IMG/VR virus record: IMGVR_UViG_3300022689_000122
Span: 1 to 29,697 of that record
Source of the DNA: a virus
Strand: one strand, 5' to 3'
Length of the DNA stretch: 29,697 nucleotides
How positions within the stretch are numbered: the first letter of the stretch is position 1; each line of letters opens with the position of its first letter. Shown here in pieces: positions 2,219 to 29,049 of this stretch. Both the position numbers and the translations under genes were made by a program. A model generated the notes under the pieces. The model saw nothing but the letters and a program-made list of their open reading frames with translations, was not told the origin of the DNA and searched no databases.

Positions 2219-2817
2219 GTGCTGACTCTCTTTAGTAACTCTCTCGCACTCGCCATGTAGGCTTCAATCACATGTCCTACATCTACAGCAAAATTCAAAG
2301 GTTTCGTATAGTCTACCATAATGCGGCCACTAACGCCATCTGAGTGGCTCCACAGGTTCAGCCAGTATCGGTTCATCACCTTGGGGTGTTTCACCAACCT
2401 GCGGATGACTGGACGGCTTATAGGGCTGCCTAGTGTTATCAACCCGGCACACATAGTGTCTTGTTGCTCAATGGCGGCTAACGTCTCTAACGCCACCACA
2501 CTGCCAAGGCTAAACCCGATTAGGTAATACGGCTCGTTCAACAAGTGCATTTCAAGGGCTAGCTCGTCAATAATACTATTCCGCAATCGCTTGTCGAAAA
2601 AGTACCGTGGCACATCGGCGCCATAGTCTAATAACTTCTTGGTTACTGGTGTTTTGTATAGCAGCCAGCGGGTGAAGCGGTCAAACATTGTCCGCTCAAC
2701 GTTATCTTCCCAGTTAAACTCGATAATGTCATCCATCCGGCAACCAAGCTCAATATAGAGGTCTTTAGCCCAGCCAGGTTTAGTATCGCCAATACCGTGT
2801 ACAACAATGTATTTCAT
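2215..2817 (-). CDS. Alpha/beta hydrolase (lipase/esterase-like)
   Basis: A 200-aa alpha/beta hydrolase. The N-terminal strand leads to HGIGDT (7-12), an oxyanion-hole-type turn. The nucleophile elbow G-F-S-L-G places Ser103 (101-105). Asp160 (WSHSDG) and His182 (DVGHV) complete a plausible triad, with order and spacing right for the fold. It is close to the minimum length for the fold, so there is little room for a lid. Substrate is unknown. It sits directly after the M15 endolysin (TAATG overlap), a position like that of LysB esterases paired with LysA in mycobacteriophages, so an envelope-lipid role in lysis is conceivable. Fold call is strong, lysis role is inference. Confidence 0.8.
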   Translation of the reverse strand: MKYIVVHGIGDTKPGWAKDLYIELGCRMDDIIEFNWEDNVERTMFDRFTRWLLYKTPVTKKLLDYGADVPRYFFDKRLRNSIIDELALEMHLLNEPYYLIGFSLGSVVALETLAAIEQQDTMCAGLITLGSPISRPVIRRLVKHPKVMNRYWLNLWSHSDGVSGRIMVDYTKPLNFAVDVGHVIEAYMASARELLKRVST

Positions 2818-3233
2818 TAATAGTTAAACCTCTCACGCCATGGCCGTATATCTAAATGAGTAAAAGTTCGCCCGTACCCCAAGCCACCTCTCCAGTGTGG
2901 GTCTAGGTAGCGTTGTACTTCTCTTGGCGAGACACCAACCACCACAATATCTGCTGCTTTACCTACTAAGTGCTGACTATACTTAGCCCCTTTTACCTGA
3001 CGGTTGACTCGTTGTGACCGCCAGCCAGAAGTAATAATAATCGGCCTGCCAAAGTGATTCCGTATCTCTTGTAGCCGTGGGGCTATCGCCTTGATGTTAG
3101 CCACAATAGCGTTACGCTTGGCTTCCGGCAGTGCCATTAAGTCCTGATATAACCCAGCCTTGCCACCAGCTGAATTAGTGACAAAGAACTCACCAAGGGT
3201 GAAACTGCGGGCTACGTTACGGGTAAAATCCAT
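2817..3233 (-). CDS. M15-family peptidase, probable endolysin
   Basis: A 138-aa zinc D,D-/L,D-peptidase of the M15 (Peptidase_M15_3) type, which cuts peptide stems of peptidoglycan. The core reads SGWRS (69-73), then S86-x-H88-x2-G91-x2-A94-D95 and a final H126-L-D128-x-R130. H88, D95 and H126 are the expected zinc ligands. The length fits a single catalytic domain without a wall-binding domain. No signal peptide or TM is seen, so it needs a holin or another export route; small membrane proteins are encoded at 3635 and 6182. The stop overlaps the hydrolase start as TAATG. Upstream of its ATG is the repeated minus-strand motif TAGAGAGTTA rather than a good Shine-Dalgarno. Confidence 0.85.
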   Translation of the reverse strand: MDFTRNVARSFTLGEFFVTNSAGGKAGLYQDLMALPEAKRNAIVANIKAIAPRLQEIRNHFGRPIIITSGWRSQRVNRQVKGAKYSQHLVGKAADIVVVGVSPREVQRYLDPHWRGGLGYGRTFTHLDIRPWRERFNY

Positions 3234-14805: not shown

Positions 14806-15648
14806 CTAGTACCCAGTGTAGGGGTTTCGTCGTTTTGCTGGCAAGTCTGGAATATCAAACGACTTGGTAGGGGTAAATATCTCAAATATCGTACCTGCTA
14901 CACAGTCTACCACATCTTCATAAGGGTGTACCTCATGGATGACATCCAGCACGTTACCATTGCTGTCCTCTTTGTACCTGTAACCGCTCTGCATGGCCTC
15001 AATGGTGTTGGTTAGGCTCTTATGTACCTGTATCACCTCTCCGCCGTCTGGCGTGCGTTCCAGTAGCTTCTGCTTGGTCATATCGTTACGCATATCCCGC
15101 CGCTTTGGCCCCGCCATCTTATGAGCCTTGGATGATGGGAAAATACCGTGGTTATTCATGTAATGAATAGATGACGTGCCGGTATTCACATCGCCGTATT
15201 CCCCTGACGGGTCACCAAAGTCGATAAACCGTTCTACCCCAGCCGCTTGTAAGTTGGCACTGTACGCCGCCACCACTTGGGCTTGGGCATCGGTGCTACT
15301 GCCTTCCAGCACAATCTCTTTAAAAAAGATTAGTTGGCCGTTAGGGCGTAACTGGGAAAACACACAGGCATTCACACGGCCATAATCCACAAACCGGTAT
15401 ACGGGCAGATCGTCTAGCACCTCGTAAGGCTTTTTAAGGATATGCGCCTCTTTAAACTCTTTAAACACAACACCCTCCACCGACATGCTGTAACTAATAT
15501 CCAACTCCCTTGCCACTGCCGCAGGGGTCATCTGCTTGGCTTTGATCTCATTGTCGTACCAAGGGGAGCGTAATAGCCCCTCCTCATCCTCATATAAGCC
15601 TTTTCGTTTTTCAGGGTGAAGGCTCCAGTGTAGTCTAATCGCTTTCAC
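14806..15648 (-). CDS. terL: Terminase large subunit, nuclease half
   Basis: 280 aa corresponding to the C-terminal, RNase-H-like nuclease domain of a large terminase. It opens with IRLHWSLHPEKRKGLY, the segment that in intact TerL follows directly after the ATPase domain. Nuclease acidic residues appear in order: D88 (YRFVDYG), D143/D146 (FIDFGDP) and D245/D248 (YEDVVDCVAG). It starts with GTG at 15648, inside the end of the 90-aa gene (14-nt overlap), with a weak GAGAAG ribosome site. It cuts concatemers at packaging start and end. It must act together with the ATPase half at 16068-16790. All catalytic residues are present, so the split does not look like decay. Confidence 0.85.
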   Translation of the reverse strand: MKAIRLHWSLHPEKRKGLYEDEEGLLRSPWYDNEIKAKQMTPAAVARELDISYSMSVEGVVFKEFKEAHILKKPYEVLDDLPVYRFVDYGRVNACVFSQLRPNGQLIFFKEIVLEGSSTDAQAQVVAAYSANLQAAGVERFIDFGDPSGEYGDVNTGTSSIHYMNNHGIFPSSKAHKMAGPKRRDMRNDMTKQKLLERTPDGGEVIQVHKSLTNTIEAMQSGYRYKEDSNGNVLDVIHEVHPYEDVVDCVAGTIFEIFTPTKSFDIPDLPAKRRNPYTGY

Positions 15649-15907
15649 TAGCTTCTCGACACTCCCGCAAGTCTTTTATTTTTTCCTGAATTGTTTCCTG
15701 AACGGCTTTAATCTGATTCATTAACGCCACCTGTATTGGTCGATGACGGTGAACCCGCTTGCCACCGTTGCGCTCTGCGTAAATCTCTATTGACGGCACG
15801 CAATGACAGTCGCTGCCAATGGTATGCAGGTTTGTTTCACCTTCAGGGATGGCGTGATAATGGCCGTTTACCTGGTTTTCTAACACTTCGAAAAACTCAA
15901 CACTCAT
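15635..15907 (-). CDS. Small DCxC-motif protein inserted between TerL halves
   Basis: 90 aa. The centre has H28, then D33-C34-x-C36-x-P38 and, after 15 residues, V52-H53-R-H55, likely a small metal-binding fold. This 'H..DC.C.P....VH.' pattern resembles short unnamed proteins common in phages and actinobacterial elements, which I know only as hypothetical. Residues 59-90 are an amphipathic helix. GAGGAGGAAG precedes the ATG, and the previous stop TGA directly abuts it. It is thus translated in line with the basic 55-aa gene and the TerL halves. Function unknown; a bridging or regulatory role in packaging is possible from position only. Confidence 0.65.
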   Translation of the reverse strand: MSVEFFEVLENQVNGHYHAIPEGETNLHTIGSDCHCVPSIEIYAERNGGKRVHRHRPIQVALMNQIKAVQETIQEKIKDLRECREASESD

Positions 15908-16075
15908 TCACTTCCTCCTCTTTGCTGTTTTTGCGGCCTTTTTAAATGCTTTCGCTGTGGGCGCACCTTTTGTGCCGGGCTTTCTCATTTTTTCACCACT
16001 CCCAGCTGCAATGCGCTTCCGTTTTGCATGAATAGCATCATACAATCCAGGGTCACCTTTCTTTTTCCTAGGCAT
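15908..16075 (-). CDS. Small basic protein (55 aa) with SGEKMRKPGxKGAPT motif
   Basis: A 55-residue ORF beginning MPRKKKGDPGLYDAIHAKRKR. The segment SGEKMRKPGTKGAPTAKAF (26-44) is one I recognise as recurring in small basic proteins of phages and large DNA viruses, although I cannot cite a function. It is strongly basic throughout, compatible with DNA or RNA binding. AGGAGGTGGTGAGT precedes the ATG, and the start overlaps the end of the TerL ATPase half by 8 nt. It lies between the terminase halves. Real gene status rests on ribosome site, motif and coupling. Confidence 0.75.
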   Translation of the reverse strand: MPRKKKGDPGLYDAIHAKRKRIAAGSGEKMRKPGTKGAPTAKAFKKAAKTAKRRK

Positions 16076-16790
16076 ACTCACCACCTCCTATATCCACCCA
16101 CTCTACATCAGGGTGCTGTCTCATCCGATACGCTATGTTTGCCTGCCCAAACGGGGTAAACAACAAAATAATACAATTACTTGACTGGGATACCGACGCA
16201 TAGGCGTAATCACCATACGGGTGACGTGCCACCTCATCCATCAACACTGCCTTAAACCGTTGGGATCGGCCAAAGTCGGCGGTGGCTGATTCACCCTTTA
16301 ATATATTACCAGTATGTGGGTGGGTTATCTTCAAATAGTTATCATTCTGATACGTCAGTTTAGGGCATATCCAGTCTGGTTGCATCCGTAGGTTATACCG
16401 GAACTTCTCAAATAACGCCGAACGATCGCCTTTTTTGTCAACGTCGTCCTGTTTCCGGCTGCCGCATAAGAAGTCTGCGCCGTCCTCAAACAACCAAAAC
16501 CACTGAAAAACCAATAAAACCAGCCAAGATAAGCCCATATCCCGTGATTTTTCAATAATTAACGGTTCACCTTCCCTAATGCACCGCTCAAGCACCTTAA
16601 TCGTCTGAATTTGGAAAGGATACGGGTTAAAAGGCAGGTGGGCAGGCGTTACCCGTGGGTTAAAGGTGTAACAAAACCACTCAAACCAGAAAACAATATC
16701 CTTTTGACACTTTTTTACTAGAAAATGCTGTAAAACAGCGTCGTTTTTAGCCTCTTCCAGCATATTGGCACGTTCGTATAACGTCGCCAT
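16068..16790 (-). CDS. terL: Terminase large subunit, ATPase half
   Basis: 240 aa carrying the complete packaging-motor ATPase domain. It has a deviant Walker A KSRDMGLS (81-88), an arginine-rich region after it, Walker B VLMDE (182-186) with catalytic Glu186, and the coupling segment IILLFTPFG (207-215). The protein stops after RMRQHPDVEWVDIGGGEYA, exactly where the linker to the nuclease domain begins in intact TerL. The nuclease domain is encoded separately at 14806-15648. GAGAGGATTAATC precedes the ATG. ATP hydrolysis drives DNA into the head through the portal. Split-subunit operation is inference. Confidence 0.85.
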   Translation of the reverse strand: MATLYERANMLEEAKNDAVLQHFLVKKCQKDIVFWFEWFCYTFNPRVTPAHLPFNPYPFQIQTIKVLERCIREGEPLIIEKSRDMGLSWLVLLVFQWFWLFEDGADFLCGSRKQDDVDKKGDRSALFEKFRYNLRMQPDWICPKLTYQNDNYLKITHPHTGNILKGESATADFGRSQRFKAVLMDEVARHPYGDYAYASVSQSSNCIILLFTPFGQANIAYRMRQHPDVEWVDIGGGEYA

Positions 16791-27894: not shown

Positions 27895-27984
27895 ATGGCC
27901 CCATTGATTAGCACCATTATAGCCACGGCTATAGCCACGCTGGCGGTGATACTGCCAAGTGTTTTGATTATTTATTTGTTTTAG
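27895..27984 (+). CDS. 29-aa single-TM membrane peptide
   Basis: A short ORF encoding MAPLISTIIATAIATLAVIL and nine more residues, almost wholly hydrophobic with no charged residue. GAGGAGGCGTAACG before the ATG is a strong ribosome site, and the next gene's AGGAGG begins at its stop, so real translation is likely. It resembles small toxin-like or holin-like peptides and could assist the lysis genes 300 nt further on. Function is inference. Confidence 0.6.
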   Translation: MAPLISTIIATAIATLAVILPSVLIIYLF

Positions 27985-27995
27985 GAGGTTAAGGA

Positions 27996-28298
27996 ATGAC
28001 GAACGATAAACCGCTGAGTGCTGACAATCAATACACCGAGAAAGACAAACGAATTAAGCAGATGGAGAATTTATTAAAAGAGTATGCTGACGCATGGCGG
28101 TATTACGACCGCTATGACGGATACCATGGCGATTGCCGCAAATGGCACTGTGAACCAGCTGCAGACCTCAGAGAAAGAACATTAAAAACCCTCGCCGTCA
28201 CTGATAAACCAAAAGGTCAGTATGACTTAATCTCTCAGCCGGATGCGTTGGATGATCTTTTACCGATGCCAAATCCCCTTAAAAGAGAATTAGATTAA
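27996..28298 (+). CDS. Unknown 100-aa charged protein
   Basis: Helical N-terminal half (TEKDKRIKQMENLLKEYADAWRYYDRYDGYHGDCRKWHCEP) with two cysteines 6 residues apart (C48 and C54), then a Pro/Leu-rich tail. TTAGGAGGTTAAGGA precedes the ATG. Similar 'YADAWRYYDRYDGYHGDC..WHC' patterns occur in small phage hypothetical proteins. Stop overlaps the next start as TAATG, so it is coupled to the lysis gene pair. Confidence 0.55.
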   Translation: MTNDKPLSADNQYTEKDKRIKQMENLLKEYADAWRYYDRYDGYHGDCRKWHCEPAADLRERTLKTLAVTDKPKGQYDLISQPDALDDLLPMPNPLKRELD

Positions 28299-28624
28299 TG
28301 TCCGAGGAACTCAACACGATTACCCAACCAATAAAGGAAGCCAATTGGACTATGATTATCAAGACCATTAAACTCACCACCGCCGCATTATTAGCCGCTG
28401 GCCTGCTATTTGCCGGTTACTGGGCTGGTGAAGCCTACACTAACCATAAACACCGCTACATCACTTATATTGATGGTGCTAGTATCAATCTGGCTCAGGA
28501 CATGCAAGCTATTTGTGATAGTAGCCACGTCTGCAAAAAGGCTGAGATTATCGCCCGTCTGCAATCGGTTAAGGCTGAAGCCCTGATGCTGGATATGGTG
28601 GAGGACTACGGCAAGGGAAAGTAA
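28298..28624 (+). CDS. Single-TM lysis protein; 0-frame product of a frameshift pair
   Basis: 108 aa with cytoplasmic N-terminus, one TM segment (about 25-43, LTTAALLAAGLLFAGYWAG) and a mostly helical extracytoplasmic part with two cysteines (C73, C79). An internal ATG at codon 19 could be an alternative start. The final codons AAG GGA AAG TAA hold a slippery heptamer (28615-28621) before the stop, and the lysozyme reading frame continues in -1. Alone the product could be a holin, antiholin or spanin-like protein; after frameshift it is the anchor of the lysozyme fusion. Its start overlaps the preceding stop as TAATG. Confidence 0.7.
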   Translation: MSEELNTITQPIKEANWTMIIKTIKLTTAALLAAGLLFAGYWAGEAYTNHKHRYITYIDGASINLAQDMQAICDSSHVCKKAEIIARLQSVKAEALMLDMVEDYGKGK

Positions 28625-28657
28625 CCGGCGGGGGTAGTTACCAGCTCATCACCCGCC
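28615..28657 (+). promoter_or_regulatory. Programmed -1 frameshift signal
   Basis: In the frame of the 108-aa gene the codons read G GGA AAG (heptamer GGGAAAG, 28615-28621), directly before the TAA stop. This is the same heptamer used at the lambda G-GT frameshift. After a 5-nt spacer, GGCGGG (28627-28632) pairs perfectly with CCCGCC (28652-28657) around a 19-nt loop, a suitable stimulatory stem-loop. A -1 slip continues in the lysozyme frame with GTA ACC GGC. Confidence 0.75.
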
Positions 28658-29049
28658 ACGAAGGATTACGGTTAAAAGCCTACAAATGCCCGTCCGGTAA
28701 GTGGACTATTGGTTATGGTCATACGAATGGAGTAGAGGAAGGCATGGTTATCACAAAATCCCAAGCCCGTAGGCTACTATTAGCGGATATGGAGCAGGCC
28801 AGGCAAGCCGTCGCCCGTAACGTCAAGGTGGATTTATCACCTAACCAATACGACGCACTGGCCAGCTTTGTATTTAACGTAGGCGAGGGGCAATTTAAAC
28901 GGTCTAGCGTGCTACGCCATATCAACAACGGCCAGCTAGCCGAGGCCGCCATTAGTTTACTAGCCTACACCCGTGACAGCTACGGCAGGGTGTTAGGCGG
29001 CTTACAGAAACGCCGTAAACAAGAGTTTAAGATGTTATTAGGAGTATAG
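28621..29049 (+). CDS. GH24 lysozyme domain, expressed as -1 frameshift fusion
   Basis: 142 codons in the -1 frame of the 108-aa gene, giving a probable 250-aa fusion (28298-29049). The domain starts SYQLITRHEGLRLKAYKCPSG and shows the GH24 triad E-x8-C/D-x5-T as E122, C131, T137 of the fusion, then GYGHT, 'SPNQYDALASFVFNVG' and 'GGLQKRRKQEF'. It cleaves the peptidoglycan glycan backbone. There is no ATG, GTG, TTG or CTG between the in-frame stop at 28576 and the catalytic residues. The first ATG (28744) would yield a 101-aa product lacking the triad. The anchor makes it resemble a signal-anchor endolysin. A simple sequencing frameshift is the main alternative. Confidence 0.85.
   Translation, partial: VTGGGSYQLITRHEGLRLKAYKCPSGKWTIGYGHTNGVEEGMVITKSQARRLLLADMEQARQAVARNVKVDLSPNQYDALASFVFNVGEGQFKRSSVLRHINNGQLAEAAISLLAYTRDSYGRVLGGLQKRRKQEFKMLLGV

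Follow-up and report, generated by a model that had tools for sequence, protein, structure and literature searches.

A lysozyme reading frame without a start codon

How can a phage make a lysozyme from a reading frame that offers no start codon? This question is raised by an uncultivated phage represented by one fragmentary virus record (IMG/VR IMGVR_UViG_3300022689_000122), which we analyzed over its whole 29,697-nucleotide stretch, hereafter the window; the junction described below is known from this single sequence. On the plus strand, a gene encoding 108 amino acids (28298-28624) begins with ATG at 28298 and ends with a TAA stop at 28622-28624. In the -1 frame relative to this gene lies a GH24 lysozyme of 142 codons plus stop (28621-29049, plus strand). 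Inspection of the reading frames showed that the lysozyme frame is closed on its 5' side by a TGA at 28576-28578 (plus strand) and is open from 28579 to a TAG at 29047-29049, with no ATG, GTG or TTG in the 27 codons from 28579 to the catalytic GAA codon at 28660. A preliminary description of this DNA had reported these frames and the stop, a slippery heptamer and stem at the junction, and the lack of a start codon between the stop at 28576 and the catalytic Glu, and we confirmed the position of each. Neighbouring genes on the plus strand begin with ATG, several of them with strong Shine-Dalgarno (SD) sites.

The lysozyme was assigned from its matches to Pfam PF00959 (6.7e-42, full-length at profile positions 2-125 of 125), to the endolysin family phrog_7 (3.9e-52) and to the GH24 lysozyme in PDB entry 6h9d (1.7e-23). 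Its E-x8-C-x5-T motif is intact, as had been noted before, with the triad at E122, C131 and T137 when residues are numbered along the fusion protein proposed below. The nearest relatives are about 51% identical to it, and none exceeds this value. In 216 of 217 GH24 loci, a set that includes some duplicates, a start codon lies at least 6 codons 5' of the Glu, the sole exception being the locus in the window. The missing start is thus atypical for GH24 and is of a kind seldom made by error in such data.

Elements of a predicted -1 frameshift signal at the junction

The 3' end of the upstream gene reads GGC AAG GGA AAG TAA. By motif inspection, a slippery heptamer, G_GGA_AAG, occupies 28615-28621 (plus strand) in the frame of the upstream gene, and its phase fits tandem slippage from GGA AAG to GGG AAA. 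The TAA stop directly adjoins the heptamer and overlaps the -1-frame codon GTA (28621-28623). In E. coli -1 signals, G_GG.A_AA.G ranks among the three heptamers of highest efficiency, the stimulatory structure lies 5-8 nt 3' of the heptamer, and an SD-like site, which is optional, precedes the second base of the heptamer by 6-17 nt (PMC4066793). Folding of the window sequence gave a plus-strand hairpin at 28627-28657 that begins 5 nt 3' of the heptamer and has 13 base pairs and two single-base bulges. Its first 6 pairs are all G-C (28627-28632 with 28652-28657), so that the short GC stem of the preliminary description is present and extends further. We also found an SD-like GGAGG at 28600-28604 (plus strand), which that description had lacked, 10 nt 5' of the heptamer and 11 nt before its second base at 28616. 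The class and frame of the heptamer, the spacing of the hairpin and the spacing of the SD-like site all agree with the three published E. coli criteria (PMC4066793), and no published component of bacterial -1 frameshift signals is missing from the junction.

We estimated how often such a junction arises by chance from a control of 1,041 distinct ORF ends of at least 80 codons, taken from the window and the fetched phage loci. A strong heptamer occurred within the last 15 codons at 23 of these ends, a rate that is approximate because the control includes spurious ORFs. Only at the window's junction did an X_XXA_AAG heptamer stand directly 5' of the stop, and this was also the only end where a heptamer occurred together with an SD-like site and with a hairpin more stable than -10 kcal/mol. 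In shuffled windows, an SD-like site and heptamer at the observed spacing were expected 0.04 times. The hairpin on its own is only moderately unusual in strength. It reached -16.4 kcal/mol in 47 nt (z -2.2) and a z of -3.65 as an isolated 37-nt hairpin, falling to about -1 in contexts of 69-96 nt, where the core fold persists; in a larger set, 2.6-3.7% of ORF ends had an equally strong hairpin at the same place.

A codon-usage model built from 8,639 codons in the remaining genes of the window placed the best frame switch within the heptamer, at 28615-28618, a position compatible with slippage and also with any gene junction there.

Predicted products of the junction

We conclude that the lysozyme is probably made through -1 programmed ribosomal frameshifting as a 250-amino-acid membrane-anchored fusion, which is our best reading of this single sequence. 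The majority of ribosomes would translate the 108-amino-acid membrane protein and terminate at the TAA at 28622. A minority would pause with Gly and Lys tRNAs on GGA AAG, held by contact between GGAGG and the anti-SD and by the downstream hairpin, and would slip back to GGG AAA. With GTA as the next codon, these ribosomes would produce the fusion, with the predicted junction peptide ...GKG-K-VTGGGSYQLITR. The preliminary description had offered the same frameshift reading; the anatomy of the signal supports it well and agrees with all the criteria of PMC4066793, while the start codons of the other GH24 loci that we checked speak against it.

The N-terminal transmembrane segment (TM) of the fusion would act as a signal anchor, N-in and C-out, and would hold the lysozyme at the periplasmic face of the inner membrane. 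As this orientation is the natural reading of the TM, the lysozyme is predicted to be exposed to the periplasm, and since the anchor itself would carry it there, a holin would not be needed for export. The amount of lysozyme would be tied to the amount of the 108-amino-acid protein. We infer the slippage and its efficiency, the topology of the fusion and any role in lysis from these features. The broader proposition, in which the phage makes this muralytic enzyme solely by extending a small inner-membrane protein at its C-terminus, in a ratio set by a complete -1 frameshift signal, and recoding decides the anchoring, holin-free export and dosage of the lysozyme, seems to us evenly balanced.

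If this is true, recoding would govern how much of a cell-wall enzyme is made and where it is placed, and lysis, or early entry through the wall, would be controlled otherwise than by holin timing or SAR release. It would also mean that startless lysozymes in phage annotation are not necessarily broken genes.

The upstream protein

The 108-amino-acid protein has one TM, which is weakly hydrophobic and rich in Ala and Gly (best windows at residues 19-38, maximum 1.69) and is preceded by a short Lys-containing segment. Past the TM are about 62 predicted-helical residues that include Cys73 and Cys79. An AlphaFold model gave two helices at low confidence (mean pLDDT 56) and was set aside. In the P1 endolysin Lyz, cysteines control the catalytic Cys; by analogy, and as speculation, Cys73 and Cys79 might control the catalytic Cys131 of the fusion.

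No relatives of the protein were found in IMG/VR (by pattern scan), GenBank phages, PLSDB plasmids, one GTDB genome scan or the ORFs of all fetched loci, searches that may have left out the records nearest to the window's own. A 29-amino-acid ORF at 27895-27984 (plus strand) has a strong SD (GAGGAGG) and consists almost entirely of one hydrophobic segment, MAPLISTIIATAIATLAVILPSVLIIYLF; it might encode a small membrane peptide that belongs to this cluster.

The preliminary description had suggested that the 108-amino-acid protein is a holin- or spanin-like lysis partner. Its match to the Rz-like i-spanin profile phrog_6197 was weak (E 0.0063). Such spanins have an N-terminal TM and a periplasmic coil, and one TM was predicted in the 108-amino-acid protein. 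The window also encodes an M15 peptidase-type endolysin in its structural region (2817-3233, minus strand; PF08291 3.7e-23, phrog_894 6e-30). Because of the weak match and this separate endolysin, the role of a lysis partner is doubtful. The GH24 gene itself sits among uncharacterised plus-strand genes, and its product may serve as an additional wall enzyme or as one with a special purpose; whether the fusion acts in lysis is uncertain. An alpha/beta-hydrolase-like gene (2215-2817) adjoins the M15 endolysin.

GH24 genes and heptamers in other phages

No close relatives of the window were found in IMG/VR when we searched by lysozyme, upstream protein, portal or neighbouring gene, or by alignment of the capsid or the lysozyme. 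Neither a GH24 gene nor the upstream protein was found in the capsid relatives, most of which are records of short fragments. The nearest relatives of the capsid and portal are in MW495066.1, deposited as 'Microcystis phage MaAM05' (L089), which also carries a potassium transporter gene (kimA) and lepA; given the presence of these two genes, the record appears to be a piece of bacterial chromosome that contains a prophage and not a phage genome. The large terminase of the window is split into two ORFs on the minus strand (14806-16790), of which 16068-16790 corresponds to phrog_2 positions 262-411 and 14806-15648 to positions 426-596. About 420 nt with two small ORFs separate them, which is not a simple indel.

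We also scanned IMG/VR for GGGAAAG or AAAAAAG shortly 5' of the lysozyme WTIGYGH motif. The scan returned 60 stretches, none of which held a startless GH24 frame with an in-phase heptamer. Where an in-phase heptamer does precede GH24 in other phages, a start codon is present in every case: the lysozymes of L177 and L178 have GTG starts that overlap the upstream stop, and those of L190/L193 have ATG starts beside it. In these loci the purine tract probably serves as the SD of the lysozyme. The preliminary description had looked to homologues with their own start codon as evidence against frameshifting. All the other GH24 loci that we checked do have one, but these are at most 51% identical to the window's lysozyme and lack the upstream gene.

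Alternative explanations

The weights that we give to the alternatives to frameshifting are judgements and not computed values. In the main alternative, which we consider possible though unlikely, the lysozyme is, or until recently was, an ordinary gene under translational coupling. It would have had a GTG start at 28621 in a GTGA overlap, and a G to A change, natural or by sequencing error, would have turned the overlap into GTA/TAA; the gene would now be silent or weakly re-initiated at GTA, and the heptamer, SD-like site and hairpin would be coincidental. This explanation draws on the position of the GTA codon, 13 codons before the catalytic Glu and near the starts of the homologues, and on the junction itself, GGGAAAGTAA, which is one base away from a GTG-start/TGA-stop overlap of the kind seen in L178. 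There, a holin-like gene leads into a GH24 lysozyme through the same junction, in this case with a GTG that can serve as a start, GGAGGGAAAGTGA (also given as GGGAAAGTGA).

Coupled NTGA overlaps are indeed common in these phages, with 770 found in the fetched loci. Heptamers of this type are very rare before a coupled stop, however, as XXXAAAR preceded the stop in only 1 of the 770 pairs, that single case being L178, which was fetched for its heptamer. Stop-start coupling therefore rarely makes such a heptamer. Moreover, ordinary initiation at GTA from the GGAGG is unlikely, since the 16 nt between them are too long a spacing for an initiation SD, and the nearer AAGGG is a poor one. Coupling also leaves a hairpin at frameshift spacing unexplained, and a start has been lost in no other GH24 locus that we checked. 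In L178 (minus strand, around position 3029 of the reverse complement), the strong slippery heptamer lies right at the GTG-start/TGA-stop overlap; it probably does no more than provide that lysozyme with its SD and spacer, and dual use is possible.

We find it rather improbable that the two frames belong to a single, continuous TM-anchored lysozyme gene from which one base of the GGG or AAA run has been deleted, whether by misassembly or by a recent frameshift mutation. Homopolymer runs are the usual sites of deletions, a deletion here would leave a slippery-looking sequence, and codon usage shows the two frames abutting exactly. GH24 endolysins with a signal anchor in a single polypeptide are also known, as PMC7312051 indicates for SAR endolysins such as that of phage HP1. 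After a deletion, however, out-of-frame reading would not be expected to stop right behind the break, and the SD-like site and hairpin, both correctly spaced, would go unexplained. We noticed no other broken frames among the window's genes, and a search with the 250-amino-acid fusion as query found no fused homologue in GTDB genomes or phages. Longer single-frame matches of this query in Vibrio phages crossed stop codons and were rejected as chance extensions.

Independent re-initiation of the lysozyme frame after the TAA, at the non-canonical codons CTC (28645) or ATC (28648), is highly improbable: GGAGG and AAGGG lie shortly upstream, and the MS2 lysis gene re-initiates after an overlapping gene according to work cited in PMC5009743, but with such starts only 5 or 4 residues would precede the catalytic Glu, against the 12 or more that are usual in homologues, and CTC and ATC seldom serve as start codons.

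Comparison with known systems

In lambda, the G/GT tail chaperone is extended by a -1 frameshift at GGGAAAG. The same heptamer is predicted to give extended capsid proteins in phiEco32-like phages, among which Privateer has two capsid bands and mass-spectrometry support (PMC7881722, PMC9965538). Like the window, these systems have G_GGA_AAG close to where the upstream gene ends, and the resulting minor product is extended at its C-terminus, as predicted for the window. Their products are tail or capsid proteins, however, whereas in the window a membrane protein would be extended by a complete enzyme. Bacterial -1 signals of the dnaX and IS911 type resemble the window's predicted signal in having an SD-like site, an X_XXA_AAG heptamer and a hairpin at the same spacings, and differ from it in their genes and type of product.

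A lysin involving two overlapping reading frames, as in the window, is reportedly encoded by one phage of a Gram-positive host, which sets it apart by type of host. A putative -1 frameshift at an endolysin gene has been described for genes 39/40 of Alteromonas virus vB_AspP-H4/4 (PMC5658483). As in the window it is predicted only, but there the endolysin pairs with an internal virion protein that is said to arise from the frameshift, whereas here a lysozyme pairs with a TM protein. The authors of PRFect, moreover, list lysins among the genes in which frameshifts are known (PMC10885494). The preliminary description knew of no such coupling of lysis partner and endolysin. Recoding at an endolysin gene has already been proposed (PMC5658483, PMC10885494), while in the open-access papers searched we found no described case in which frameshifting adds a lysozyme to a TM protein, the subscription literature being mostly outside the scope of the search.

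The SAR endolysins, such as P1 Lyz and HP1 Lys, come close to the predicted product in their makeup, with a GH24 domain behind an N-terminal, weakly hydrophobic, Ala/Gly-rich TM, and with a catalytic Cys and further Cys residues. In SAR endolysins a single frame encodes both parts, the TM near the N-terminus and the enzyme immediately after it, whereas in the window about 75 residues lie between the two and a frame change is needed. Because its TM and its enzyme are encoded in separate frames and lie well apart, the fusion would not be a member of the SAR endolysins and would only be similar to them in its working. The mechanism that we propose is a known one, and it is the pairing of genes that is apparently new.
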